From the NCBI GenBank assembly GCA_017436865.1, contig JAFSCH010000099.1, positions 1 to 33,453 of the forward strand: a stretch of 33,453 nucleotides of DNA, written 5' to 3'. The notes beneath the pieces are model-generated. The model saw only the letters and a list, made by a program, of their open reading frames with translations. It did not search any database and was not told where the DNA came from. The stretch comes from Lachnospiraceae bacterium (GTDB lineage: Bacteria; Bacillota; Clostridia; Lachnospirales; Lachnospiraceae). A program made the translations under genes and the position numbers. Positions 15,612 through 28,523 of the stretch are shown here, one piece after another. Numbering within the stretch: the stretch's first letter is position 1; every line of letters starts with the position of its first letter.

Positions 15612-18600
15612 ATGGGAAATGTTAAACGTATTTACGTAGAAAAAAAAGATTCCTTTGCTGTTAAGGCAAGAGAGCTGGAAGAAGATATTAAGGGTTACCT
15701 TGGTATTTCCGGTTTAGAAAAGGTAAGAATCTTCATTCGTTATGATGTGGAGAACTTATCTGATGCTACCTTTGAAAAGGCTTGTAATTGTGTATTTTCA
15801 GAGCCGCCAGTAGATGTACTTTTCCATGAGACATTTGAAATGCCTGAAAATGGAAAGTGTTTTTCAGTAGAATTCCTTCCTGGACAGTATGATCAGAGAG
15901 CTGACTCAGCAGTTCAGTGTGTAAGATTCCTGAAAGAAGACGAAGAGCCAATTATTAAGACAGCAGTTACTTACCTTCTGATTGGTAATATTTCCGATGA
16001 TGAGTTCATGAAGATAAAGTCTTACTGTATCAACCCTGTTGATTCTAGAGAGACAGATATGGTTAAGCCAGAGACTCTTGTTACCAACTTTGAAGAGCCG
16101 GATGATGTTGCTATCGTAGAAGGATTTGTTGAGAAGAATGAGGCTGATTTAAAGAAACTTTATAATTCCTATGGTCTTGCTATGACATTTAAGGATTTCC
16201 AGCATATCCAGAACTACTTTAAGAATGAAGAGAAGAGAGATCCTTCTATTACAGAAATCAGAGTTCTTGATACATACTGGTCTGATCACTGCCGTCATAC
16301 AACATTCTCTACAGAGTTAAAGGATGTTACTTTTGAAGATGGCTACTATACAGAGCCAATCAAGACTACATATAAGAAGTATTTAGAGACAAGAGAAGAG
16401 ATTTTTCAGGGAAGAAAGGACAAGTATGTTTGTCTGATGGACCTTGCTCTTATGGCTATGCGTAAGCTTGAAAAAGATGGAAAGCTTAACGATAAGGAAG
16501 TTTCTAACGAAATTAATGCATGCTCTATCGTTGTTCCTGTTGAAATTGATAAGGAAGACGGAAAGGGTGTTATTACAGAGGAATGGCTTGTAAACTTTAA
16601 GAATGAGACACATAACCATCCAACAGAAATCGAGCCATTTGGTGGAGCAGCTACTTGTCTTGGTGGTGCTATCCGTGATCCATTATCAGGTCGTACCTAT
16701 GTATATCAGGCTATGCGTGTAACAGGTGCAGCAGATCCGACTGTTCCTGTAGAAGAGACTATGAAGGGTAAGCTTTCTCAGAAGAAGCTTGTTCGTGGTG
16801 CTGCTGACGGATATTCTTCCTACGGTAACCAAATTGGTCTTGCAACAGGCTATGTTAAGGAAATCTATCATCCAAATTATGTTGCTAAGAGAATGGAAAT
16901 CGGTGCGGTTATGGGTGCTGCTCCAAGGGCAAGTGTTATCCGTGAGGACTCTGATCCGGGCGATATCATTATTCTCTTAGGTGGACGTACAGGACGTGAT
17001 GGTTGTGGTGGTGCAACAGGTTCTTCCAAGGTACATACAGAGGCTTCTATTGAAACTTGTGGTGCTGAGGTTCAGAAGGGTAACGCACCTACAGAGCGTA
17101 AGATTCAGAGATTATTCAGAAGAGAAGAAGTTAGTAAGTTAATCAAGAAGTGTAATGACTTCGGTGCAGGTGGTGTATCTGTTGCTATCGGTGAGCTTGC
17201 TGATGGTCTTGTTGTAGATATGGACAAGGTTCCAAAGAAGTATGCAGGTCTTGATGGTACAGAGCTTGCTATTTCTGAGTCACAGGAAAGAATGGCAGTT
17301 GTAGTAGATCCTAAGGATGTACAGGAATTCCTTGGCTACGCAGCAGAAGAGAACCTTGAAGCTGTTGAGGTTGCTGTTGTTACTGAAGAGCCAAGACTTG
17401 TTCTTAAGTGGAGAGGTACAGAAATCGTTAACTTATCAAGAGCATTCCTTGATACAAACGGTGCTCATCAGGAGACTTCTGTATATGTAGATACTCCAGT
17501 TAAGGAAGACAATTACTTTAACAAGATTGCAATTGATAAGGTTGAAGAAGCACTTAATAAGGGTGATGTTAAGGCAGCAGTGCTTGCTGAATTAAATGAC
17601 TTAAATGTATGTTCTCAGAAGGGACTTGTAGAGAAGTTTGACTCTTCTATCGGTGCAGGTAGTGTATTCATGCCTTATGGTGGAAAGTATCAGTTAACAG
17701 AGACTCAGGCTATGGTTGCAAAGCTTCCTGTTCTTAAGGGTAAGACAGATGTTGTAACCATGATGAGCTATGGTTTTGATCCATATCTTTCTACATGGAG
17801 TCCTTATCATGGAGCAGTTTACGCAGTAACAGAGTCAATTTCCAGAATCGTTGCAAATGGTGGTGATTACTCTAAGATTCGTTTAACTTTCCAGGAGTAC
17901 TTCAGAAGAATGACAGAAGATCCAGCAAGATGGAGCCAGCCATTTGCAGCATTACTTGGTTCTTATGATGTACAGATGGGATTTGGACTTGCTTCTATCG
18001 GTGGTAAGGATTCTATGTCAGGTTCCTTCAATGAGATTGATGTACCTCCAACATTAGTTTCTTTTGCAGTAGATGTAGCAAAGAAGCAGGAGATTATCAG
18101 TCCAGAGCTTAAGGTAGCAGGAAACAAGCTTGTTACTTTTGCATTAAAGAAGGATGAATTTGATCTTCCTGTATACGAAGAAGTTATGAAGCTTTACGAT
18201 GCTATTCATGCATTAATCGTTAAGAAGGCAATCGTATCTGCTTATGCATTAGATTCTAAGGGTATCATGGCAGCTGTTGCAAAGATGGCATTTGGTAATA
18301 AGATGGGTGTTGCGTTCTCTAATGAATTAGAGGCAAATGCATTATTTACCAACAGAATTGGTGATATTATTGCAGAAGTATCAGCAGAAGGTATGGAAGC
18401 ATTACAGGCAAGCGGTGTAGCTTACGAAGTAGTTGGTACTGTATTAGATGAAAATGCAGGATTTGTATATAAGGATGTAACGGTTACTATGGACGAGGCT
18501 TTAAAGGCATGGACAAGCAAGCTTGAGAAGGTATTCCCTACAAAGGCTGTAAAGGCGACTGATCCAATCGAAACAAAGCTTTACAAGGCTTCTGATATTT

Positions 18601-19421
18601 ATGTATGCAAGAATAAGATTGCAAAGCCTACTGTATTTATTCCTGTATTCCCAGGTACAAACTGTGAGTATGATAGTACAAAGGCATTTGAGCGTGCAGG
18701 CGCTAACGTTGTAACAAAGGTATTCCGTAACATGACAGCTTCTGACATCAGAGAGTCTGTTGATGAGTTTGAGAAGGCAATCAGTCAGGCACAGATTATC
18801 ATGTTCCCAGGTGGATTCTCAGCTGGTGATGAACCAGACGGAAGTGCTAAGTTCTTCGCTACTGCATTCCAGAACGCTAAGATGAAGGAAGCAGTTATGA
18901 AGCTCTTAAATGAAAGAGATGGTCTTGCATTAGGTATCTGTAACGGATTCCAGGCTATTATCAAGCTTGGTCTTGTACCTTACGGTGAAATCGTTGGACA
19001 GAAGGAAGATTCACCAACTCTTACCTTCAATACAATTAACCGTCATATCTCTAAGATGGTTTATACTAAGGTTGTTTCTAACAAGTCCCCTTGGTTACAG
19101 AAGGCAGAGCTTGGTAAGACTTATGTAACACCTGCTTCTCATGGTGAAGGACGTTTCGTAGCTCCTAAGGAGTGGATTGATAAGCTCTTTGCTAACGGAC
19201 AGGTAGCTACTCAGTACGCTGACTTCGATGGAAATATTTCTATGGATGAAGAGTGGAATGTAAACGGTTCTTACGTAGCAATCGAAGGTATTACATCTCC
19301 AGACGGAAGATGCTTCGGTAAGATGGCTCACGTTGAGCGTCGTGATGATGCTGTTGCCATGAATATCTATGGTGAACAGGATATGAAGATCTTCGAATCT
19401 GGTGTTGAGTACTTTAAATAA
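15612..19421 (+). CDS. purL: phosphoribosylformylglycinamidine synthase, single-chain large form
   Basis: This 1269-residue enzyme converts FGAR, glutamine and ATP to FGAM in step four of purine synthesis. It is the long one-piece form, with synthetase and glutaminase fused, rather than the PurS-PurL-PurQ set common in Bacillus; the fused form also occurs in Clostridia. Visible parts are the N-terminal PurS-like region (1-170), SDHCRHT (224-230), the glycine-rich ATP region NFKNETHNHPTEIEPFGGAAT and the central second AIRS-like half. The C-terminal class I glutaminase domain begins near KPTVFIPVFPGTN, with the nucleophile Cys1110 in GICNGFQ and His1177/Glu1179 in SHGEGRF. GGAGG precedes the ATG. 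Its codons look strongly biased, as in a highly expressed gene. A mobile element starts five bases after its stop. Confidence 0.97.
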   Translation: MGNVKRIYVEKKDSFAVKARELEEDIKGYLGISGLEKVRIFIRYDVENLSDATFEKACNCVFSEPPVDVLFHETFEMPENGKCFSVEFLPGQYDQRADSAVQCVRFLKEDEEPIIKTAVTYLLIGNISDDEFMKIKSYCINPVDSRETDMVKPETLVTNFEEPDDVAIVEGFVEKNEADLKKLYNSYGLAMTFKDFQHIQNYFKNEEKRDPSITEIRVLDTYWSDHCRHTTFSTELKDVTFEDGYYTEPIKTTYKKYLETREEIFQGRKDKYVCLMDLALMAMRKLEKDGKLNDKEVSNEINACSIVVPVEIDKEDGKGVITEEWLVNFKNETHNHPTEIEPFGGAATCLGGAIRDPLSGRTYVYQAMRVTGAADPTVPVEETMKGKLSQKKLVRGAADGYSSYGNQIGLATGYVKEIYHPNYVAKRMEIGAVMGAAPRASVIREDSDPGDIIILLGGRTGRDGCGGATGSSKVHTEASIETCGAEVQKGNAPTERKIQRLFRREEVSKLIKKCNDFGAGGVSVAIGELADGLVVDMDKVPKKYAGLDGTELAISESQERMAVVVDPKDVQEFLGYAAEENLEAVEVAVVTEEPRLVLKWRGTEIVNLSRAFLDTNGAHQETSVYVDTPVKEDNYFNKIAIDKVEEALNKGDVKAAVLAELNDLNVCSQKGLVEKFDSSIGAGSVFMPYGGKYQLTETQAMVAKLPVLKGKTDVVTMMSYGFDPYLSTWSPYHGAVYAVTESISRIVANGGDYSKIRLTFQEYFRRMTEDPARWSQPFAALLGSYDVQMGFGLASIGGKDSMSGSFNEIDVPPTLVSFAVDVAKKQEIISPELKVAGNKLVTFALKKDEFDLPVYEEVMKLYDAIHALIVKKAIVSAYALDSKGIMAAVAKMAFGNKMGVAFSNELEANALFTNRIGDIIAEVSAEGMEALQASGVAYEVVGTVLDENAGFVYKDVTVTMDEALKAWTSKLEKVFPTKAVKATDPIETKLYKASDIYVCKNKIAKPTVFIPVFPGTNCEYDSTKAFERAGANVVTKVFRNMTASDIRESVDEFEKAISQAQIIMFPGGFSAGDEPDGSAKFFATAFQNAKMKEAVMKLLNERDGLALGICNGFQAIIKLGLVPYGEIVGQKEDSPTLTFNTINRHISKMVYTKVVSNKSPWLQKAELGKTYVTPASHGEGRFVAPKEWIDKLFANGQVATQYADFDGNISMDEEWNVNGSYVAIEGITSPDGRCFGKMAHVERRDDAVAMNIYGEQDMKIFESGVEYFK

Positions 19422-19425
19422 ATAG

Positions 19426-19437
19426 TATGAAAAATCC
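19426..19437 (+). repeat. left copy of the 12-bp flanking direct repeat (target duplication candidate)
   Basis: TATGAAAAATCC lies five bases after the purL stop codon and touches the left 269-bp repeat. It matches 28512-28523 exactly. The last bases (ATCC) also match the beginning of the repeat, so the duplication may be as short as TGAAAA. Confidence 0.75.
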
Positions 19438-19702
19438 CAAGGCACTCCAAATTATCCCGAAAAGGCAAAAAAGAGTAGCCTAAAGATAAGTGAATAAGCA
19501 AGAAAAAATGTAGACCTTGTAGAGGAAAAACCAATCCTCTATGAGGTCTTTTTGCATTCTAGGACCTTGAAAATAGAGGGCTTGAGAGAAAAACAAGAGA
19601 AAAGTAAGGAAGTCGTCTTTTGAGGTAAACCGAGAAAAATCCGAGATTGGGTGAGGATAAAGAAAATTGCCTTTAGAGGATAAAAAGGGTTGCCTTGGTA
19701 TA
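19434..19702 (+). repeat. 269-bp terminal repeat U, left copy
   Basis: This is a non-coding unit with its own terminal inverted repeats. The left end 19437-19457 starts CCAAGGCA and the right end 19678-19698 ends TGCCTTGG; the two 21-bp ends match at 16 positions when one is reversed. A further related site lies in tandem at 19655-19675. The shared motif reads GGATAA, a 7-base variable core, then TGCC(T)T. Left and right copies differ only at 19548 (C here, T there) and 19562 (G here, A there). It contains the terminator described separately. The layout resembles a miniature transposon or a long terminal repeat. Confidence 0.9.
19512..19553 (+). terminator. intrinsic terminator inside the left U repeat, serving purL
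   Basis: AGACCTTGTAGAGGA (19512-19526) pairs over 15 bp with TCCTCTATGAGGTCT (19535-19549), with two G-U pairs and an 8-base loop, followed by four or more T residues. It lies 91 bases after the purL stop and would now end purL transcription, because the element separated purL from the hairpins originally downstream of it (now at 28512-28572). Confidence 0.88.
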
Positions 19703-19712
19703 AGGAGAAATT
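19691..19712 (+). repeat. inner inverted repeat, left (candidate core transposon end)
   Basis: TGCCTTGGTATAAGGAGA plus AATT matches the reverse complement of 28234-28255 at 20 of 22 positions. The outermost bases are TG here and CA at the other side, the usual termini of elements moved by DDE transposases of the TnsB/Mu group. The first bases overlap the end of the U repeat. Confidence 0.65.
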
Positions 19713-19714
19713 CA

Positions 19715-19837
19715 TTTTTGGCAAAACACGTTTTTGGCGATGCCCTAAAATCAAGGGTTTCAGAGGTTCACGTTTTTGGCATTTCCCCAAAAATATCAAA
19801 TTTGGCATTTTGCCAAAAATGAGACTCTATTTTTGGC
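19715..19837 (+). promoter_or_regulatory. array of TTTTTGGC motifs upstream of tnsA
   Basis: TTTTTGGC occurs at 19715-19722, 19731-19738, 19773-19780 and 19830-19837. A partial copy (TTTGGC, 19801-19806) and an inverted copy (GCCAAAAA, 19812-19819) form a hairpin TTTGGCA-TTT-TGCCAAA. No similar array occurs at the right side of the element. The set could be TnsB binding sites of a left end, or operators controlling tnsABC. The stretch has no credible coding frame. Nothing else is evident between it and tnsA apart from the ribosome site GGAAAGGTGG. Confidence 0.6.
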
Positions 19838-19880
19838 GGTTCAATACTCTCAATCCCAGACATAGGAAAGGTGGTATTTT

Positions 19881-20243
19881 ATGCGAAAAAAGAATTACAA
19901 AGGAGCAAAGTGTACAAAACGATATGTAGAGAAGTGTGAGGATGTTTGCAAGACTTATGATGTCATCCAATACGCTTATGCAGATTTACTTTCAAAAGCA
20001 GAGGAAGAACAAAGTTTTAGGGTTAATGTTTTGTTGGAAGGATTGCAAGAGGGAGATTATACATCTGATTTTGTAATTGTGAAAGCAGATGGTGGGCTTA
20101 TGATAAGAGAATGTGTTAGCAGAAGACATTTAACAAAGCCAATGACAACAAAACTTTTGGATGCAAGCAGAAATTATTGGAAGTCTCATGGTGTCAATGA
20201 TTGGGGTATTGTTGTGGAGAAAGAAGGTGTTGCTAATGTGTAA
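19881..20243 (+). CDS. minimal TnsA-like transposon endonuclease
   Basis: TnsA cuts the 5' ends of a Tn7-type element so that it leaves by cut-and-paste. This 120-residue protein corresponds to the nuclease domain only; Tn7 TnsA has about 270 residues with a C-terminal winged-helix part that is absent here. Similarity rests on an acidic helix (AEEEQSF, 40-46), TSDF with Asp63, IRECVSR with Glu77, and the tail LLDASRNYW followed by GVNDWGIVVEKE, a typical TnsA-like ending. Where the PD-(D/E)xK nucleases have lysine two residues after the Glu/Gln, this protein has Val79, with basic residues only at 81-82 and 86, so catalysis needs checking. AGGTGG precedes ATG 19881. It overlaps tnsB by 8 bases. 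Confidence 0.72.
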   Translation: MRKKNYKGAKCTKRYVEKCEDVCKTYDVIQYAYADLLSKAEEEQSFRVNVLLEGLQEGDYTSDFVIVKADGGLMIRECVSRRHLTKPMTTKLLDASRNYWKSHGVNDWGIVVEKEGVANV

Positions 20244-22080
20244 GAATGGATTGAAGAAATATATGCTTCTAAAAAAGGAAGATGGAGAAGAAGTAAGTAT
20301 TTACAGGGTATTGGAACTCGTAGAAGAAAAAGTGCTTGTGATGGATTGTGTGAAGAAAGTTATGCCGGTGTGGAAAGAAGTAGAATTATTTAAGACTTAT
20401 GATGTTATTGAAGAAGATGTAAAGAATGATACCTTATCCACTCTTGAAGATATGGATGCAGAGGATAGGAAGATTGCATATCAAAGATATAACATGATTT
20501 CATCCATTTTACCTTTTATGGCAAATGAAACCATGAGGACAGAAGCAATTAAGAAAGTGGCAAAAGATAATCAGTTGTCTTTACAATCCATACGGAAATA
20601 TCTTTGTGAATATTTGGCGACTATGGATGTTAGGAGTTTAGCACCAAAGCAGAGAGAAACAGAAAAACCACTTACAAAGGATGAAAAGAATATGCGTAAA
20701 TCTCTCAACAGGTGGTACTACACAACGAAGAAAAGAACATTGAAGAATTGCTACACTCTTATGTTACAGCATTTTTATTGCGATGAAGAAGGCAAATTAT
20801 TTGAGGAACATCCATCCTATTATCAATTCAGATATTTTTATCGGAAGTACAACAAGAAGGAAACGGAATACATTAGTCGAAATGGATTGTCCTATTATCA
20901 GAGAAACCAAAGACCATTGGTGGGGGATGGAGTTCAGGCATTTGCACAAACCATTGGAATGGGGATGTTGGATGCGACGGTGTGTGATATTTACCTTGTG
21001 AATGAAGTTGGTGGAATTGTAGGACGCCCTATTTTGACCTTATGTGTGGATGCCTATTCAGGAGTAATTTGCGGATATTCTCTTTCATGGGAAGGTGGCG
21101 TGTATTCTCTTAGAAATCTGATGTTGAATGTGGTTAGTGATAAGGTGGAGCATTGTAAATTGTTTGGTATAGAGATAAAAGAGGAACAATGGCCATCACA
21201 TCAATTACCTTTGAAGCTGGTTACAGACCAAGGTTCAGAGTATAAAGGAGAAACATTTTCTCAGATAATAGACTTGGGTGTGGAACTCTTAAATTTACAA
21301 TCTTTTCGTGCAGATGAAAAAGGACCGGTGGAACAGTGCTTTAATGCTTTGCAAAATTATTTTAAACCTATCTTGAAGGGTAAGGGGGTTATAGAAGTTG
21401 ATTTTCAGGAGAGAGGTTCTCACGATTATAGAAAAGATGCCTGTCTTACTATGGAGCAATTTGAGAAAGTGATTTTAAATTGTATTATTTTCTACAATTC
21501 CAATCGAGTATTGGAGCGATTTCCTTTTACAGAGGATATGCTGGAAGCAGAAGTGAAACCTATTCCATGTCATGTATGGAAATGGGCTTGTGAGCAATTA
21601 GGAGCTAATTTAAGGGATGTAAATAAGGAAGACCTAATAAGAGTGCTATTACCAAGAACTAAGGGCAAATTTGGACGAAATGGATTGTCTGTGAATGGAT
21701 TACATTATCACAATCCACTCTTTAGAGAAGAATATCTGCAAGGCAAGGAATGTGTAGTTGCCTTTGATATGGATAGTTCTAATCATATTTGGCTAATTGA
21801 AAATGGGAAATACATACAGTTTGACTTGATTGAAAGCAGATTCATGGATAAGGGATTGAATGATGTGGCTCTTATGAAATCCAAGCAGAGAGAGCTTGTA
21901 AAAAGGGAAGGTAAGCAGAAGACACAAGCAGAAGTAGATTTGACAAAGGCAATTCAGTTGATAGCAGATTCTTGTATGGTGCAGGTACAACCATCAACAA
22001 AAGGTATTAGAAGTAACAGGCGGAGAGAACAAGTAAAGCAGCATAAAAATTATGTGGGCGAGGTGGTAGCAAATGTATAA
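20236..22080 (+). CDS. tnsB: TnsB-like DDE transposase
   Basis: TnsB binds the transposon ends, makes the 3' cuts and joins them to the target. The 614-residue protein has N-terminal helix-turn-helix-like parts (about 85-140), then the RNase H-type catalytic core. Asp246 lies in the DAT motif that starts the core, CVDAYSGVICGY is the next strand, Asp331 lies in VTDQGSEYKG and Glu366 in EKGPVEQCF, giving the DD(35)E spacing. A C-terminal beta-barrel-like and basic tail (RSNRRREQVKQHK) would contact TnsC or DNA. ATG 20236 is chosen over a longer in-frame start because AAGGTG lies 7 bases upstream inside tnsA. The last 8 bases overlap tnsC. The TniA/Mu-like integrases are the alternative relatives. 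Confidence 0.9.
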   Translation: MCKNGLKKYMLLKKEDGEEVSIYRVLELVEEKVLVMDCVKKVMPVWKEVELFKTYDVIEEDVKNDTLSTLEDMDAEDRKIAYQRYNMISSILPFMANETMRTEAIKKVAKDNQLSLQSIRKYLCEYLATMDVRSLAPKQRETEKPLTKDEKNMRKSLNRWYYTTKKRTLKNCYTLMLQHFYCDEEGKLFEEHPSYYQFRYFYRKYNKKETEYISRNGLSYYQRNQRPLVGDGVQAFAQTIGMGMLDATVCDIYLVNEVGGIVGRPILTLCVDAYSGVICGYSLSWEGGVYSLRNLMLNVVSDKVEHCKLFGIEIKEEQWPSHQLPLKLVTDQGSEYKGETFSQIIDLGVELLNLQSFRADEKGPVEQCFNALQNYFKPILKGKGVIEVDFQERGSHDYRKDACLTMEQFEKVILNCIIFYNSNRVLERFPFTEDMLEAEVKPIPCHVWKWACEQLGANLRDVNKEDLIRVLLPRTKGKFGRNGLSVNGLHYHNPLFREEYLQGKECVVAFDMDSSNHIWLIENGKYIQFDLIESRFMDKGLNDVALMKSKQRELVKREGKQKTQAEVDLTKAIQLIADSCMVQVQPSTKGIRSNRRREQVKQHKNYVGEVVANV

Positions 22081-23365
22081 GAGTAAATGGAATATTATGG
22101 AGAAAATAGAGCCAATGCTTGTGGGGGAGGAACTGAAAAAGAGGATGTTGTTTACTCCTGATTATGAGGAAAGCATAAGGAAAGAAAGTGCAAGTACCAG
22201 ATTGTTGGAACTAAATAAAATAAATGCCTTTTATCTTCCCTCTGATATGAGTGTGGAGATTTACACAAAACTATATCTTGCCATGGTTAGGTCATTGCAG
22301 AAGAAAGAGAGCAAGTTAGCTATTCAGCAGAGGAATCTTAATGGAAAGAATATGAGAGCCTGTGCAAATGGTATAGAGCCATCTTGTGGTGGGATTATTG
22401 GTGGAAGTGATTCGTTTAGTATCATTGGATACAGTGGAATCGGAAAAACAAGTGCTATAGAAAAGGTAATACAACTTATGGGTGGGGGAAATGTAATTGA
22501 AATGGAGCAACCATTTTGTAAAATTATTCCTGTCATTAGTGTGCAATGTCCATTCGATTGTTCGGCAAAGAGTATGTTACTTGCCATATTACAAAAGGTG
22601 GATAATGCACTTGGAACTGCTTATTATGAAAACATGGTAAGAGCAAAGGCAAATATCAATACCATGCTTATTTCAACAGCACAGGTGTTGTTAAATCATG
22701 TGGCGGTTGTTTGTATTGATGAAATTCAAAACCTAATCAAACATAGAGCAGGGATGCAATTAGTTTCCATGCTAACAGAACTTTTGAATGAAAGTGGCAT
22801 CAGTATTGTGTTTGTTGGAACTCCTGAAATAAAGCCATTTTTTGAAAGTGTGGATTATCTGGCAAGAAGAACTTTGGGGCTTGTTTATGGGAAGTGTGAG
22901 TACAATGTGTATTTTAAGAAGTTTTGTAATACCTTATGGAAGTTCCAATATGTGAAACAATATGCAGAACTTACGGAATCTGTCATTAATTGGCTATATC
23001 AACATTCTGCAGGAACATTGGCACATGTGATATTTTTGTTTTACACATCACAAGAGATAAGTATTTTAGATGAAAGAGAAATCATTGATATACAAGCATT
23101 GGAAGCTGCATATCAGAGAATGGAAATGTTACATATGCACATTCAACCGGAAGTGAGTATAAAAAAGATTGCTTCTAAGAGAAAAAAGAATACCTCCATA
23201 AAAATGCTTGGTGAAACCAGTGAGAAGAAAGAAGAAAATGAAATGGCTTCTGATGTGGCATTTGATGTTGTAGAGGAGCATCCGGCGAGTAGAGGGAATA
23301 GTGTGGATTGGTCTTTTGAGGAACTGATGAAAGAAGCCAAAAAATATTATGCTGGTTACGGTTAA
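22073..23365 (+). CDS. tnsC: TnsC-like AAA+ ATPase
   Basis: TnsC-type ATPases form filaments on target DNA and pass target information to TnsAB. The 430-residue protein has Walker A GYSGIGKT (119-126), Walker B VVCIDEIQ (212-219), a sensor-like FVGTPE (247-252) and an arginine pair ARR (264-266) at the expected arginine-finger place. The residues after 350 (KKIASKRKKN and a charged tail) form a separate basic region that could bind TnsB or DNA. The start ATG 22073 overlaps tnsB and has AGGTGG upstream, so A, B and C are translationally coupled. The TniB/IstB relatives are shorter, and the TnsA neighbour favours TnsC. Confidence 0.9.
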   Translation: MYKSKWNIMEKIEPMLVGEELKKRMLFTPDYEESIRKESASTRLLELNKINAFYLPSDMSVEIYTKLYLAMVRSLQKKESKLAIQQRNLNGKNMRACANGIEPSCGGIIGGSDSFSIIGYSGIGKTSAIEKVIQLMGGGNVIEMEQPFCKIIPVISVQCPFDCSAKSMLLAILQKVDNALGTAYYENMVRAKANINTMLISTAQVLLNHVAVVCIDEIQNLIKHRAGMQLVSMLTELLNESGISIVFVGTPEIKPFFESVDYLARRTLGLVYGKCEYNVYFKKFCNTLWKFQYVKQYAELTESVINWLYQHSAGTLAHVIFLFYTSQEISILDEREIIDIQALEAAYQRMEMLHMHIQPEVSIKKIASKRKKNTSIKMLGETSEKKEENEMASDVAFDVVEEHPASRGNSVDWSFEELMKEAKKYYAGYG

Positions 23366-23588
23366 GTGTAATATGAAGTGTGGCAAGGTAGAAGAAGATA
23401 CAGAACCTTGGAGTATAAATATTTTAAAAGAGAAAGCGGAGCAGATTTTATTCCCTTGCACAAATTCCTGTGAGTATGCGATAGATTATCAAGGATATAA
23501 AGTGTGTAAACCTATGTTTGTTAAATATTGTAGGATAAATGAAGAAGATGAAAAATATAAAGGGAAAATAGAATTACAGATGAAATGA
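23349..23588 (+). CDS. small cysteine-rich protein encoded directly after tnsC
   Basis: The 79-residue ORF overlaps the tnsC stop by 17 bases; ATG 23373 would give a 71-residue version that starts after that stop. Neither has a good ribosome site, so translation would depend on coupling to tnsC. Apart from two N-terminal Cys residues (CNMKC), four cysteines in the second half are spaced C-x3-C-x11-C-x7-C, which suggests a small zinc-binding fold. The segment PWSINILKEKAEQILFP looks like an amphipathic helix. I recognise no family. By position it takes the place where Tn7 relatives usually encode a TniQ/TnsD target selector, but it lacks any TniQ motif, so a target-selection role is only a hypothesis. 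Confidence 0.6.
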   Translation: MLVTVKCNMKCGKVEEDTEPWSINILKEKAEQILFPCTNSCEYAIDYQGYKVCKPMFVKYCRINEEDEKYKGKIELQMK

Positions 23589-23646
23589 AACAAAAGTTTT
23601 TGAAAGATAAAGATTAGTTACAAATTAGTGTAGAGGAGAGGAATTT

Positions 23647-23786
23647 ATGATAGATATTGATGAATTTCAGAATATAAGAAAAAACAGGAATTTGAAAGTT
23701 GCCAACGAATACTTGACACAAACGGATTGCACAGTGTGTTTGCAAATGAAGCTGTAGCATGGTACTATTGTAACAGGACTATTTGA
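23647..23786 (+). pseudogene. tiny frameshifted ORF with an A-AAA-AAC slip site
   Basis: A strong ribosome site (AGAGGAGAGG) precedes ATG 23647. In the starting frame, 36 residues end at TAG 23755-23757. Switching to the -1 frame after AAA-AAC (23680-23685) gives a more protein-like continuation QEFESCQRILDTNGLHSVF and then ANEAVAWYYCNRTI, stopping at 23784-23786, 46 residues in all. The switch point is a run of six A and fits the slippery heptamer A_AAA_AAC in phase. It could therefore be programmed -1 frameshifting, a one-base deletion in a remnant gene, or a sequencing error. The family is unknown. It lies between the tns genes and a terminator. Confidence 0.5.
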
Positions 23787-23830
23787 GATGCATAATTATT
23801 ACAAAGGGAAGAATTGATTAAGGATTTGAG

Positions 23831-23865
23831 ACCACCAAGAGTTTGATGGCTTTTGGTGGTTTTTG
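23831..23865 (+). terminator. intrinsic terminator between the tns genes and the cargo
   Basis: ACCACCAA (23831-23838) pairs with TTGGTGGT (23853-23860) and is followed by TTTT. It separates the transposition genes from the KAP/HSP90-type cargo, which should then have its own promoter or rely on read-through; no clear promoter was found in the 38 bases before the KAP start. Confidence 0.82.
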
Positions 23866-23902
23866 CTCTATTAAAAGCGGTTATGGCGAAGGAGAAGGAA
23901 TT

Positions 23903-25228
23903 ATGAGTGACAGAATAGATTTATTAAATCGGAGTAAATTTGTAGAAAATGTAATTAAAGTAGTGAATCAATTATCTGAAAACAAGAAAGGTTGCTGCTT
24001 TGCTATTGAAGGTGGTTGGGGAATTGGAAAAACTTTTGTAATAGAAGAGATTGAACAACAATTAAGAAATATTCAATCAGAGGAAAGTCATCCGGATAGA
24101 TATTTTGTATTTCATTATAATTGTTGGCAGCATGATTATTATGAGGAACCGGCAGTGGCAATTATATCAGCAATGCTTAGTTCTATTGAAAAAGATGATG
24201 AGGTAGTAAGTGAAAAAGTAGATGGAATAATTAAAGTTGGATGGGGAATGGCCAAGGATAAGTTAAAGGAAATAGCAGGATTATACATAGAAAACAAGAT
24301 AGGTGTAAATCTGATTAGTTTATTTGAAGAAGCAGACAAACTTAGAAAAGAAGATAATCAGGATACATTTAAGTTTGATGAGTTGTTCAATTTTAGCCAG
24401 ACTATTGAGCAAGTTAGAGAAAAATTGCAAGAAATAGCAAAAGATAGAACATTGGTACTTGTGGTTGATGAATTGGACAGATGTATTCCACAGTATGCAA
24501 TCAAAGTATTGGAAAGATTGCATCATATTTTCTATGGTTTGGATAACGTGATTGTAATTATGGCTATTGATAGAACCCAGCTAGAACATTCTGTAGAAGA
24601 GATGTTTGGGATTAACGATAATTCTATAGATATTGAGAAGTATTTAAAGAAGTTTATTGACTTTTCTATGGTCTTAGACAATGGAGTTGTAAATGAGTCC
24701 TTTGAAGAAAAGTATAAGTTCTATTTTGGTAAATTTGAAAAAGAATCAAATGATGAGGAAATGTTGAATAAGGTAGTACCATCATTGTTTCAAGGAATTG
24801 ATATTAGAAGGCAGGAAAAGATTATTGAAAAAGCCAACATAGTACATTCGTTGATTTGCAATGAAAAAGTAGATGTGTCTGTTTTGGTTTTTGAAATAAT
24901 GTATGAAGTATTACAAGAATGGCAATTTGGTAATATGGAGTATGTTGTTAAAATTGCGGATTCTCATAATGTTGATTTAGAGAAAAAAATAGGAAAAGAA
25001 AAAATTGAAATTTTGAAGCAGTTAGAGAGTAACGCTCAGAATGGAAATTGTTATGTGAATAATATGAGAAAAAAGAGCATTCTTCCTAATTTATATGGTA
25101 AAGTGTTTTGGTATTTTGCAAATATATTTAATGAAAATTCTTATTATGGAGGAAGTTTGAGTGATGAAGTAATAGAAGAATCAAAAATAGTAAAAAAATA
25201 TTGTGAATATTGTGAAATTATAAAATAA
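23903..25228 (+). CDS. KAP-family P-loop NTPase (cargo, putative defence component)
   Basis: The 441-residue protein begins with a KAP-type P-loop domain. Walker A is GGWGIGKT (37-44), followed by the KAP-specific strand FHYNCWQHDYYEEP (70-83), a helical insertion (about 90-180), Walker B LVLVVDELDRC (184-194) and the sensor region VIVIMAIDRTQLEHSV. No membrane helices are obvious in the insertion, unlike many KAP ATPases that are membrane-linked. The C-terminal 190 residues are helical and unassigned. GAAGGAGAAGG precedes ATG 23903; a start 20 codons earlier would overlap the terminator and is rejected. Bacterial KAP NTPases occur in anti-phage systems such as Qat (QatA), so a defence role is inferred from family and from cargo position. 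The next gene begins 28 bases later. Confidence 0.85.
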   Translation: MSDRIDLLNRSKFVENVIKVVNQLSENKKGCCFAIEGGWGIGKTFVIEEIEQQLRNIQSEESHPDRYFVFHYNCWQHDYYEEPAVAIISAMLSSIEKDDEVVSEKVDGIIKVGWGMAKDKLKEIAGLYIENKIGVNLISLFEEADKLRKEDNQDTFKFDELFNFSQTIEQVREKLQEIAKDRTLVLVVDELDRCIPQYAIKVLERLHHIFYGLDNVIVIMAIDRTQLEHSVEEMFGINDNSIDIEKYLKKFIDFSMVLDNGVVNESFEEKYKFYFGKFEKESNDEEMLNKVVPSLFQGIDIRRQEKIIEKANIVHSLICNEKVDVSVLVFEIMYEVLQEWQFGNMEYVVKIADSHNVDLEKKIGKEKIEILKQLESNAQNGNCYVNNMRKKSILPNLYGKVFWYFANIFNENSYYGGSLSDEVIEESKIVKKYCEYCEIIK

Positions 25229-25256
25229 ATAAAGCAAGGATACAAAGGATAGTGTG

Positions 25257-27956
25257 ATGGAAAAAATTATAAAATATATGAAACAGAGAGCTGAGAACAT
25301 AAGTGAAAATGAAGTAAAAGAATATTATGATATACTAATGAACTATATATTAGTGGATTTTAACTTTATAAAAAGTAATAAAATTACTGTGTTTATGGAA
25401 TATTTTTCTTGTCTTATTTTGGAAGAAATGGGGTATCGAATCGATAATCATGGAAAGAGTTCCGTGTTCAAGGAAAAATATAAAAGAATACAGGATAGAA
25501 TCAGTATAGGTATAGATGAATTAAAATATAAAGAGGAAAAGGATTTTGATTATGAAAATGAGGTTTTAGTTATTGCATTTAGAATTTTAAAGTATTTTGA
25601 ATTAGATAATAATAGATTGTATTTAAATATGGGAAGGACTATTAATAAACAAATTAAAATACATAATGATTATAGGAGTAATGTATATATTTGTGAAGTC
25701 GAGGGAAAAGATATTGATTATGTTTCCTTAAAATTAATTGAAGAGAAAATAAATGATTTAAGAAAAGAAATAGAGTATCTCAATGATTTTATTTTGAATT
25801 ACTATCAAGAATATTATTTGAAAATATTTAGGGTTTCTAAAATTATTTTTGATAAAGAGAGTATAGCAAAGAATTTTATACAGGGGGAAGTTAAGTTTAG
25901 GGCAAGTTTTAAAATTATACAAGAATTGATAGGTCCATTGTATTTGAACAAAGAAAGTTATGGAATGAGAGAATTGATTCAAAATGCAGTAGATGCCTGT
26001 TTGAAAAGTGGAAGCGGAGCAGTTGATATAAGATATTATAATGAGGAAAAACCTTACATAATAATAAAAGATAATGGAATTGGAATGAGTGAAGATATTA
26101 TATGTAATAAGTTTTTTACTATAGGTGAATCAGCAAAAAAAGAGGATGCTAGTATAGGAAAATTTGGAATAGGTGTTTTAGCAGCTTTTTTATTAGCCGA
26201 TGAAATGAAGTTTAAAACATATCATAGTAGTGAAGATTTTATTTATGAATCTGAAGAAATGCCTTTAGAAGCGGTACAAAAAGAAGAAAAATTTATAAAT
26301 ATTAAAAAACATGAAAAAGAAGAAAAAGATGATGAATTTCGGGGTACAGAAATAAAACTTGAACTGAAAGACAGCATTTTAAAAAGTCAAGAAGTTGCCA
26401 ATATTCAAGCTAAAATAAGGGAAGAAGAAAAAGAATGGATGGAAAAGCTTTTTGGACATAATAATAGTTATGGCTCGCTTTGGTATGGATATTCGACTGA
26501 ATTGGCAAAAATAAAATCTGAAATTCCTGCAATGGAAGAATTTAATTTAGAAGCCAATTCAGAAAGAGTAAAAGAAATTATTGAAGAAATAAGAAATTAC
26601 AATAAATATGGAATTAAAGATACAGATGAAAAATGTAAACTGCAAAATAAAGTAAGTGAGTTTTGTGAAAAGGCACGTATTAATCTTGAGAAAAAACAAC
26701 ATTTAGAAGCATATTCAATTCTTGAATTTTTATCTGCAAATAATTGGTATTTGTTAAAAGATGAATCTATAAGTATAAATTTTTGGGATAAAGATATAAA
26801 ATTAGAGTATTTGAAAAATTTTTCCGAAGAAGAATTGCTTAAGGAAGATTTGATGGAAGAACAAGAAGTAAAACACATTGAAACTATTTCAAATGAATTT
26901 GGAATTAGATATTTTTGGAAAAAAGAATTTGCAGGGAATATTTTTTGCAATAATATGTTGATTCCTACAAAATATAATTTTGAATCATCTATAGCAAAAG
27001 TATTTAAGGTATTACCAACTATTTTGGTTGATGAAAGCCAGAACCATAAGCTAGAAATAGATTTAGCAAGAGAGAATTGTAAATTAGTAATTGGTGGTGA
27101 GAACTATGAGGAGTTAATATTAAAAGAAATATGTTCTAAGTGTTTGAAAAATTTAGAACGGTACCACAATATCTTACAGGAATTATCTTGGTTATATTAC
27201 ATAGATGAAAAAAAACAAATAAAAAAAGTAATCAAAAGTCATGCTTGGATATTAGAACATACAGAAAAGAAATATTTGTTAGTTTATGTTCAATGTGAAA
27301 AGGATGAAGAATTATCAAAAGAAAAATTGAATGATGTAATTAAAAAATTAGTTGAAGATTTTGGAAGAAATATAGTAATTGAAATAGTTAGGGGTTGCTT
27401 GAGAATAAATACAACTTTTAATGATAAAGAATATAATGATTTGTATATTGCTGCTAGGTATCAATTACAACTGATTATACATAATCAAGAATATGACATG
27501 CTTAGTGGATTCTCTAACAAGCATCTAAAAGCATTAGTTTTAGCTGCAAAAAATATTTTGGGAGATGTGAATGTAGATGTTGACAATCAATTAAAATTAA
27601 AGCCAGTCAGATTGGAACAATATGATGTTGATGAAAAATATCGGAATTTATTAATCAAAAAGAAAAGTAATAAAGAATTACAATACTTGGATTATAAAGG
27701 GGGATTAAGTAAGTATCCAGATAGTTTGCCAGATAATGTTATGGCAATAATGATTATGGATTTGGAAAAATGTAATATAAGTAATGCGTTTAGGGATATT
27801 GCTAAAGTAAGTTCTGAAAAAAGGGATTCTATATGGAATGGGCTTCAAGAAGGAATATCAGAAGTAAAGTTATTAGAGAATGACGAATTAAGAGAAGTTT
27901 TAATGAAAGAGTATGTGATAAGTGGATATGAAGATAATGTGATTGGTGAGAAATAA
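25257..27956 (+). CDS. large HSP90/GHKL-type ATPase (cargo, putative defence component)
   Basis: The 899-residue protein carries a GHKL ATP-binding domain in the middle of its first half. The N box is ELIQNAVDA (239-247), the G1 box DNGIGM (272-277), the lid FFTIGESAKK and GKFGIG (301-306), and the last motif RGTEIKLEL (362-370). These resemble HSP90/HtpG more than MutL or histidine kinases. An acidic and lysine-rich helical N-terminal region (1-220) comes before it, which is unusual since HSP90 begins with its ATPase domain. About 500 residues after it have no motif I recognise. ATG 25257 is favoured over GTG 25254 by the AAAGG spacing. The gene is extremely A+T-rich. It pairs with the KAP gene without a terminator between them. 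Confidence 0.82.
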   Translation: MEKIIKYMKQRAENISENEVKEYYDILMNYILVDFNFIKSNKITVFMEYFSCLILEEMGYRIDNHGKSSVFKEKYKRIQDRISIGIDELKYKEEKDFDYENEVLVIAFRILKYFELDNNRLYLNMGRTINKQIKIHNDYRSNVYICEVEGKDIDYVSLKLIEEKINDLRKEIEYLNDFILNYYQEYYLKIFRVSKIIFDKESIAKNFIQGEVKFRASFKIIQELIGPLYLNKESYGMRELIQNAVDACLKSGSGAVDIRYYNEEKPYIIIKDNGIGMSEDIICNKFFTIGESAKKEDASIGKFGIGVLAAFLLADEMKFKTYHSSEDFIYESEEMPLEAVQKEEKFINIKKHEKEEKDDEFRGTEIKLELKDSILKSQEVANIQAKIREEEKEWMEKLFGHNNSYGSLWYGYSTELAKIKSEIPAMEEFNLEANSERVKEIIEEIRNYNKYGIKDTDEKCKLQNKVSEFCEKARINLEKKQHLEAYSILEFLSANNWYLLKDESISINFWDKDIKLEYLKNFSEEELLKEDLMEEQEVKHIETISNEFGIRYFWKKEFAGNIFCNNMLIPTKYNFESSIAKVFKVLPTILVDESQNHKLEIDLARENCKLVIGGENYEELILKEICSKCLKNLERYHNILQELSWLYYIDEKKQIKKVIKSHAWILEHTEKKYLLVYVQCEKDEELSKEKLNDVIKKLVEDFGRNIVIEIVRGCLRINTTFNDKEYNDLYIAARYQLQLIIHNQEYDMLSGFSNKHLKALVLAAKNILGDVNVDVDNQLKLKPVRLEQYDVDEKYRNLLIKKKSNKELQYLDYKGGLSKYPDSLPDNVMAIMIMDLEKCNISNAFRDIAKVSSEKRDSIWNGLQEGISEVKLLENDELREVLMKEYVISGYEDNVIGEK

Positions 27957-28244
27957 CTTAAAAAACATATCCTATACAAATCTCCTTTAAGAAGTTTACT
28001 TAGAAACATAATTTCTATATCTTTAGATAGTCTTTAAATGTTGCTGATAAGGATATTTTGAGAGATTTGATTTTAATTGATAATGTATATACAATTATCT
28101 TTTGCTCTGATAAAAGAAATGGGGAAAAAGATAGCTAATTTAGTAAAAGTGATAGGACAAGAAGTGAGTAGCATACAATAGTTTATAGGCTGACAAAGTA
28201 GAGGATTTACGATATAATACCCTTACAAGGTCAAATATCTCCTT
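27957..28244. other. non-coding A+T-rich stretch at the right side of the element
   Basis: No credible gene is seen here; the longest ATG frame with any appeal is 32 codons without a ribosome site. There is no copy of the TTTTTGGC motif found at the left side. The stretch contains the promoter described at 28190-28218 and ends in the inner inverted repeat. Confidence 0.6.
28190..28218 (+). promoter_or_regulatory. outward-facing sigma-A promoter before the right U repeat
   Basis: CTGACA (28190-28195), a 17-base spacer and a perfect TATAAT (28213-28218) point rightwards. No reading frame follows. Transcription would start near 28225, cross into U at 28245 and meet the U terminator at 28323-28364. 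Confidence 0.65.
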
Positions 28245-28255
28245 ATCCCAAGGCA
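28234..28255 (-). repeat. inner inverted repeat, right (candidate core transposon end)
   Basis: Reverse-complemented, it reads TGCCTTGGGATAAGGAGA plus TATT and matches the left inner repeat at 20 of 22 positions. It ends in CA on the plus strand. The 5 bases just outside the two inner repeats (AGGGT and CTCCA) do not match, so there is no simple 5-bp target duplication at the inner ends. Confidence 0.65.
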
Positions 28256-28513
28256 CTCCAAATTATCCCGAAAAGGCAAAAAAGAGTAGCCTAAAGATAA
28301 GTGAATAAGCAAGAAAAAATGTAGACCTTGTAGAGGAAAAACCAATCCTCTATGAGGTTTTTTTGCATTCTAAGACCTTGAAAATAGAGGGCTTGAGAGA
28401 AAAACAAGAGAAAAGTAAGGAAGTCGTCTTTTGAGGTAAACCGAGAAAAATCCGAGATTGGGTGAGGATAAAGAAAATTGCCTTTAGAGGATAAAAAGGG
28501 TTGCCTTGGTATA
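28245..28513 (+). repeat. 269-bp terminal repeat U, right copy
   Basis: This is a direct copy of 19434-19702 at a constant offset of 8811 bases, with no indels and two base differences (28359 and 28373). Its outer right end (28489-28509, ending TGCCTTGG) forms, with the outer left end of the other copy, the terminal inverted repeat of the whole 9.1-kb segment. Confidence 0.9.
28323..28364 (+). terminator. intrinsic terminator inside the right U repeat
   Basis: It has the same 15-bp stem as in the left copy (28323-28337 with 28346-28360). The one base change in the 3' arm turns a G-C pair into G-U and lengthens the T-run, so the function is kept. Confidence 0.85.
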
Positions 28514-28523
28514 TGAAAAATCC
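28512..28523 (+). repeat. right copy of the 12-bp flanking direct repeat
   Basis: TATGAAAAATCC is identical to 19426-19437. Here it is the 5' arm of an intact hairpin that presumably lay directly behind purL before insertion. Confidence 0.75.

Follow-up and report, generated by a model that had tools for sequence, protein, structure and literature searches.

A Tn7-like element flanked by directly repeated two-ended units, and its possible integration from a single-unit circle

Tn7-like transposons, among them Tn7, Tn5053, Tn6022 and the CRISPR-associated transposons (CASTs), are the closest described relatives of an element located immediately downstream of purL in a stretch of DNA of 33,453 nucleotides from a Lachnospiraceae bacterium (GCA_017436865.1, contig JAFSCH010000099.1, positions 1 to 33,453), which we refer to as the window; the draft host genome, in 169 contigs, is called G000. 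Like these transposons, the element and its relatives contain TnsA, TnsB and TnsC homologues, TniQ (in the relatives) and variable cargo, and they insert just downstream of conserved genes with a 5-bp duplication and, in one subgroup, with TGT..ACA tips. They differ in that each end consists of the same complete two-ended unit of 0.22 to 0.55 kb, here called U, repeated in direct orientation, in that single-unit junctions occur on contigs of a viral collection, and in that TnsA is one short domain (120 amino acids in the window) with an EC motif that is not followed by lysine.

Other systems resemble the element in part. Phage Mu relies on a DDE transposase, not an integrase, to insert its DNA, the mobile form of IS26 translocatable units is a circle with a single unit, and long terminal repeat (LTR) retroelements have near-identical terminal repeats and a short flanking duplication and leave solo repeats behind. 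The likeness to the latter, in near-identical direct terminal repeats, short outer duplications and solo repeats, is an analogy in working and not a sign of membership: the window contains a DDE-transposase DNA element, no reverse transcriptase domain was found among its five core proteins, and an LTR retroelement was rejected for this reason. In IS26-family pseudo-compound transposons, short units in the same direction flank a passenger, a layout that arises from cointegrate formation (excerpts of PMC7885326), whereas the flanking U described here has no transposase gene, the transposase and, in relatives, the target selector are located in the passenger, and insertion is site-specific. Integrative and conjugative elements (ICEs) of the TnGBS type are conjugative-type DNA that also uses a DDE transposase and no integrase (excerpts of PMC3942029); unlike these and Mu-like phages, the present elements appear to choose their site via TniQ and have a genome flanked by duplicated 0.2- to 0.55-kb units. 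Tn7-like elements, cointegrates and pseudo-compound transposons are thus already known, and Tn7 relatives without TnsA make cointegrates (excerpts of the review PMC11406308). The excerpts of the literature surveyed (including PMC10293859, PMC8649781 and PMC11406308) describe neither a Tn7-like family whose direct terminal repeat is a two-ended unit nor phages that integrate by TnsABC, and according to the excerpts of Benler et al. 2021 (PMC8649781) Tn7-like transposase homologues were not found in viral genomes.

The element in the window has the order U-core-U, and this structure, with its duplications, is well supported here and in other species. From it we infer a mechanism towards which we lean: a circle with one U would insert by Tn7-type cointegrate formation, whereby U is copied, and recombination between the two U copies would excise the circle, with a solo U remaining. 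The features that define the arrangement in the window are the following.

15612..19421, forward strand: purL, the target gene (open reading frame and Pfam)
19428..19432, no strand: left target-site duplication TGAAA (same 5-bp pattern in relatives)
19434..19702, forward strand: left U, with inverted ends and an internal terminator (sequence comparison)
19513..19553, forward strand: intrinsic terminator in the left U, GACCTTGTAGAGG ... CCTCTATGAGGTC TTTTT (sequence reading; the corresponding stretch of the right U was folded)
28245..28513, forward strand: right U, a direct repeat of the left U (sequence comparison)
28514..28518, no strand: right target-site duplication TGAAA (sequence comparison)

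Recomputation on the window bore out the direct repeat reported in a first-pass annotation: the 2 copies of 269 bp are identical at 267 positions (99.3%), without indels, in the same orientation and at a spacing of 8811 bp around a core of 8.5 kb, and they differ only at 19548 (C, against T at 28359) and 19562 (G, against A at 28373). Chance is excluded as the source of this near-identity. Both copies are located on one contig with unique flanks, and no third copy was found by BLAST of the draft host genome. U starts with ATCCCAAGGCAC and finishes with GTTGCCTTGGTATA, and its inverted ends are CCAAGGCA.../...TGCCTTGG, in which AAGGCA-type motifs are repeated, whereas the ends of the whole element are direct repeats. 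By sequence, U reads as a miniature-transposon-like unit with 2 inverted ends around an intrinsic terminator. It contains no open reading frame of at least 80 amino acids; the frame with the greatest overlap, of 89 amino acids at 19539-19808 on the minus strand, extends beyond U.

The same annotation had placed a 12-bp target repeat outside both U copies, which did not hold. The 12-bp sequence TATGAAAAATCC at 19426-19437 and 28512-28523 overlaps both tips, with 4 bases inside the left U and 2 shared with the end of the right U. The outer tip can be set from the inner copy as TATCCCAAGGCA, which makes the A at 19433 the outermost base of the left copy; with ..GGTATA as the right end, the flanking duplication is the 5-bp TGAAA, and the 12-bp version was rejected. 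Also rejected were a tRNA attachment site, given that there is no tRNA in the window, and a core that is itself the transposon with U as the spacer of a circle with abutted ends, given that the inverted ends face outward from U and the duplications are located outside U.

Relatives were collected by a scan with a TnsB profile, which retained 80 of 103 genome loci and 12 loci from the viral collection (n = 92); identical tnsB segments are shared by L078, L079 and L116, by L099 and L157, and by L103 and L159. A U with inverted ends was located 292 to 734 bp upstream of tnsB at 33 loci (465 to 582 bp at 28 of them), with arms of 23 to 53 bp (33 to 43 bp at 30). These loci were drawn from 40 inverted pairs 200 to 330 bp apart by omission of L098, L104, L148, L149, L153, L155 and L158, of which five were not U-like by eye, L104 was a tandem, and L158 was located at a contig edge. 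Judged by the C-terminal peptide, the gene ending before U was ppdK-like at 15 loci, guaA-like at 11 and another gene at 4, and the remaining 3 had no open reading frame. Family models identified ppdK (1 locus), guaA (3 loci) and the class II fructose-bisphosphate aldolase gene fba (1 locus) at the representatives tested. It was also noted that contigs start 550 to 850 bp upstream of tnsB at 23 of the 92 loci (22 minus one duplicate), with 0 to 6 in every other bin (bin widths 250 to 2000 bp), which we attribute to assemblers breaking where U is duplicated.

At L131, L145 and 2 contigs of G001 (C83 and C87; L014 and L038), the elements follow only the last codons of guaA (GAGTGGGAATAA / GAGTTYGAATAR), and a full guaA was not seen there. 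These sites suggest that the target selector reads a very short motif at the 3' end. At L110 (5394-5490) the insertion follows a frame of 28 amino acids with a ppdK-like end instead of a full ppdK, possibly a copy of the target on another mobile element.

A search of related genomes for the same arrangement, as the first-pass annotation had proposed, recovered U-core-U in other species after ppdK, guaA or fba, with cores of 9.9 to 36 kb. Both U copies were located for 12 elements, the window included; G100 is not among them, and G109, G119 and G103 are each split over 2 contigs. The pairs are listed by the identity between the 2 U copies, the core length and the outer duplication.

Window: U 99.3%; core 8.5 kb; TGAAA
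G098, Falcatimonas sp. MSJ-15: U 100%; core 26.8 kb; ATTGA
G099: U 97%; core 33.4 kb; duplication only with a 1-nt shift
G105a: U 99.2%; core 26.2 kb; 4 bp, beside a tandem element
G106a: U 94.4%; core 9.9 kb; 4 of 5 bases
G112: U 92% by BLAST, 89% by MAFFT; core 17.1 kb; TTAAA
G113: U 99.5%; core 14.2 kb; TTTCA
G116: U 547/547; core about 21.6 kb; TCTCA
G118: U 99.7%; core 36.1 kb; GAAAT
G109, two contigs: U 100%; TAATA
G119, two contigs: U 300/300; ATTAT
G103, two contigs, pairing uncertain: U 93%; no duplication

The U copies were 99% to 100% identical in 8 of the 12 pairs (window, G098, G105a, G109, G113, G116, G118 and G119) and 89% to 97% identical in the others, and an exact 5-bp duplication was likewise present outside 8 of the 12. 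In 8 of the 10 elements for which comparators were available, the 2 U copies were each other's closest relatives, such that they pair by element rather than by side, a pattern that reads as concerted evolution of the kind seen in LTRs. Solo or truncated U's, which had been predicted, were also recovered in relatives, namely in G030, G121, G135, G098 and G136, the last of which has a complete U beside a truncated one downstream of ppdK. The LTR-like layout therefore holds and extends past this locus, to U-core-U elsewhere, to solo or truncated U's, and to junctions of the type expected of a single-U circle.

These junctions can be recognized by a promoter-like sequence at the right end of the core, here called P_R, and the leader that follows it.

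28190..28218, forward strand: P_R, promoter-like CTGACA-17-TATAAT that reads from the core right end into the right U (conserved at the right ends of relatives)
28225..28232, forward strand: leader ACAAGGTC, the complement of which, GACCTTGT, is in the U terminator (sequence)

Of the loci, 62 extend at least 1000 bp upstream of tnsB; a loose P_R pattern was found at 16 of them, and only at four of these 16 does it directly precede a U-like unit. One is L104, a tandem of 2 elements with 2 U's, and the other three are contigs from the viral collection, L160, L161 and L166, in which one U-like unit leads from the right end of the core into tnsA, which is the junction expected of a circle with a single U. 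Only in L161 did the script detect clear inverted ends in the junction U (75% over 28 bp). A phage endolysin and other phage-family matches were identified in L166, phage-family nucleotide-metabolism and methyltransferase matches but no structural gene in L161, and a small serine recombinase and an ArdC-like protein in L160, the latter being our reading, for which NCBIfam gave no match.

The record G147 (IMGVR_UViG_2936984999_000001; 122,814 bp) opens, ahead of tnsA, within the 3' part of U and closes with P_R and the 5' part of U, and thereby reads as a phage-sized core bounded by parts of U. It has matches to terminase, portal, tape-measure, tail, endolysin and DNA polymerase families and contains TniQ, and a 19.3-kb contig, G124, appears to share its 2 end types. 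A second profile gave a total of 14 records in the viral collection that encode TnsB relatives. Family searches identified phage structural or lysis genes in two of them (G147 and L166), and some of the 14 are probably fragments of bacteria or conjugative elements. The viral-collection record G148 (L271-L272; 91,344 bp) has tnsABC at one end and what looks by eye like a conjugation-type ATPase at the opposite end, and is perhaps an ICE fragment. A search of the viral contigs for TniQ with a single query gave no match, and the nearest TnsB among 50,697 phage records was 22% identical.

In the mechanism that we favour, the mobile form would be a circle with one U between the core right end (P_R) and the left end (tnsA). 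TniQ would direct TnsA, TnsB and TnsC, with TnsB presumably binding at the U tips, to a conserved gene (purL, guaA, ppdK or fba), at the 3' end of which they would join the tips to a target staggered by 5 bp. Replication across U would then yield a cointegrate of the order target-U-core-U-target with the 5-bp duplications outside. Copying of U in this manner would make the 2 U's identical at birth, as in LTRs. The circle would be set free again by recombination between them, through host RecA or a recombinase that the element encodes, and a solo U would stay behind. Small serine recombinases are encoded in two cores, at L160 2058-2630 (immediately ahead of P_R, at the right end of the core) and in G113 (L199 2550-3272, confirmed by Pfam), and are possible resolvases for this step. 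A crude motif scan that covered 17 core stretches or records recovered only the one in L160 and missed the one in G113, and the scan is no evidence of absence elsewhere; a recombinase as the universal excision enzyme was rejected.

Transcription would be tied to the same change of form. Beside a target gene, the U terminator would stand in for the native one and shield tnsABC. We propose that, in the circle, the leader of the P_R transcript can pair with the 5' arm of the terminator and may thereby relieve termination. At the core right ends of relatives, the -10 sequence TATAAT of P_R is followed by [A/G]CAAGGTC, and of 19 right ends or single-U junctions, 17 showed pairing between leader and U at 7 or more positions (22% in shuffles), with G121 and G135c below the threshold. 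The pairing site was GACCTTG, in the 5' arm of the terminator, in 16 of the 17, and was located elsewhere in L160. Leaders swapped between elements paired almost as well (mean 7.4, as compared with 7.9 for an element's own), and the signal is therefore mostly conservation; covariation is limited to a change from A-T to G-C at one position (ACAAGGTC/GACCTTGT versus GCAAGGTC/GACCTTGC).

The core of the window element encodes the transposition proteins and two cargo genes.

19703..19880, forward strand: core left end, the stretch from U to tnsA, in which TTTTTGGC motifs recur, as similar TTTTTGGG motifs do in relatives; probably a regulatory region or a set of TnsB sites
19881..20243, forward strand: TnsA homologue, 120 amino acids (below-cutoff match to Pfam PF08722 at E 5e-4; model fold like that of Tn7 TnsA)
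20161..22080, forward strand: TnsB homologue, DDE transposase (Pfam Mu-transpos_C; alignment)
22073..23365, forward strand: TnsC/TniB AAA ATPase, adjoining tnsB (Pfam TniB and AAA_22)
23843..25228, forward strand: cargo, KAP P-loop NTPase, candidate defence protein (Pfam; PADLOC PDC-S20, E 1.7e-166)
25254..27956, forward strand: cargo, GHKL/HSP90-like ATPase protein, adjoining the KAP gene (Pfam; weak TmtA match)

The TnsB residues D271, D356 and E391 were invariant in all 8 aligned sequences. The AlphaFold2 model of TnsA (mean pLDDT 90.6) matched Tn7 TnsA (1t0f/1f1z) with TMq 0.76 to 0.77 and E 3e-6 to 8e-6; this fold search succeeded where PDB sequence searches with TnsA gave only unrelated matches, and 12 of 18 TnsA members matched PF08722 at E 0.1 or better. 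The catalytic residues of Tn7 TnsA are E63, D114, Q130 and K132. In the 18-row alignment D63 and E77 were invariant. An anchored motif allowed the residue after EC to be scored in 79 of the 81 sequences; it was V in 72, I in 3, A in 2, and T and C in 1 each, and never lysine. The missing lysine is compatible with weak 5' cleavage, which would favour cointegrates, but it is no proof of them.

Neither TniQ nor TnsD was found in the core of the window element, and a weak search of the host genome, with a single query, gave no match to TniQ. Pfam TniQ was identified in all 6 of the relative proteins tested (G098, G112, G113, G105, G118 and phage G147), and in relatives the gene is located 3' of tnsC, where the window has the cargo pair. 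The window copy is probably unable to target by itself. The KAP (PADLOC PDC-S20) and GHKL/HSP90-like pair at 23843-27956, a candidate defence system, may have taken the place of the target selector. No phage structural genes were found among the five core proteins.

Several observations weigh against integration from a single-U circle. The junction U's of L160 and L166 have inverted matches of only 7 to 10 bp, such that their assignment depends on position, terminator and flanks. Terminal overlap is absent from L160, L161 and L166, which are short contigs and could be concatemers or tandem insertions, and circularity is read from the contig junctions. TnsA is retained and strongly conserved, which leaves cut-and-paste transposition compatible with the data, and its missing lysine is a reading of the sequence. 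The duplications fall short of an exact 5 bp in G099, G106a, G105a and G103, and the tips are fixed by TGT..ACA only in G109, G112 and G113, with 1 to 2 nt of freedom in placement elsewhere. In G099 and G106a the U copies were not mutual best matches, which implies exchange between elements. Finally, a search of 25 genomes with the G112 U gave at least 2 separate U places in 10, one in 13 and none in 2, and a search of 10 genomes with the G099 U gave at least 2 in 6, one in 3 and none in 1. Most of these genomes are draft assemblies, yet some may genuinely lack a second U. In G107 and G111 the G112 U as query gave no U, and the sequences are too divergent to judge.

Some of these observations would be accounted for if the whole U-core-U were an ordinary Tn7-like transposon that moves by its outermost tips, with the U's as redundant complex ends whose likeness is maintained by gene conversion. 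We consider this unlikely, although it agrees with the 5-bp duplications outside the outermost tips, with the retention of TnsA and with the many genomes in which only one U was seen. Exchange between U's would also be expected, and on contig C19 of G106 (L099, L201, L202 and L233) the intact element has a right U that shares only 94.4% identity with its own left U but 99.6% with the left U of a second, degraded element, at a distance of about 26 kb in the same genome, which points to recombination between the U's of different elements. However, such a transposon does not predict the single-U junctions on contigs of the viral collection, nor does it explain why a complete two-ended U is kept in direct orientation in many species.

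Less probable still is that a solo U, as a miniature inverted-repeat transposable element (MITE), was resident at the attachment site first and that a U-carrying circle then entered by homologous recombination. U remnants at attachment sites and the complete solo U beside a truncated U in G136 are in line with this, but two steps would be required per site, at several sites and in many species, and the 8 mutually closest pairs are not mosaics of a resident and an incoming U. The 5-bp duplications at several different genes make Tn7-type transposition at the U tips the simpler explanation. Of the origins offered in the first-pass annotation, the circle is thus the favoured one, homologous integration into a chromosomal U is less probable, and the composite of two MITEs has not stood.

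That composite, a chance enclosure of unrelated genes by two MITEs in this genome only, would fit a MITE-like U and a window without TniQ, but it is highly improbable and in effect refuted, because the architecture, the core-U junctions and the promoter are all common to many species. It is barely conceivable that U is an ordinary sequence downstream of purL, for which a U-like 5' half after purL in G030, where no TnsB match was found in the genome, could be cited, or that the right U is an assembly artefact, which is already refuted by the 2 differing bases and the unique flanks. A search for purL matched 36 of 38 genomes of the genus, and the downstream sequence was read at the 30 loci returned, 2 of which had less than 150 bp before the contig end. 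A full U was present only in the window and a remnant only in G030, whereas the other 28 loci had none, and an ordinary purL-downstream sequence was rejected on these grounds. Furthermore, U is located away from purL in G011 and G001, and in G011 the element and its U follow guaA (C-terminal peptide judged by eye) while purL has a plain terminator. The survey and G011 together indicate that U belongs to the element and that purL is one attachment site.

More tentatively than for the mechanism itself, we suggest a distinct mode of integration, in which circular phages, plasmid-like elements and defence islands with one two-ended mini-transposon of 0.2 to 0.55 kb would integrate site-specifically via TnsABC-TniQ cointegrates and so acquire LTR-like U flanks; excision would leave a solo U, and a leader RNA across U would switch the transposition genes on only in the circle. 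If true, this would be a further route by which temperate phages and circular elements enter the chromosome, besides site-specific recombinases and Mu-type transposition, with Tn7-like machinery acting as a phage or plasmid integrase and the cointegrate, usually regarded as a by-product, as its working product. The U pairs could serve as a built-in clock of insertion age, and site-specific integration of a whole circle would be of interest for genome engineering.

Some cores contain further genes, as if they derived from plasmid or phage replicons: by Pfam (L168, L169 and L178), the core of G098 encodes SSB and RadC, and that of G105 an actin-like, partition-type protein.

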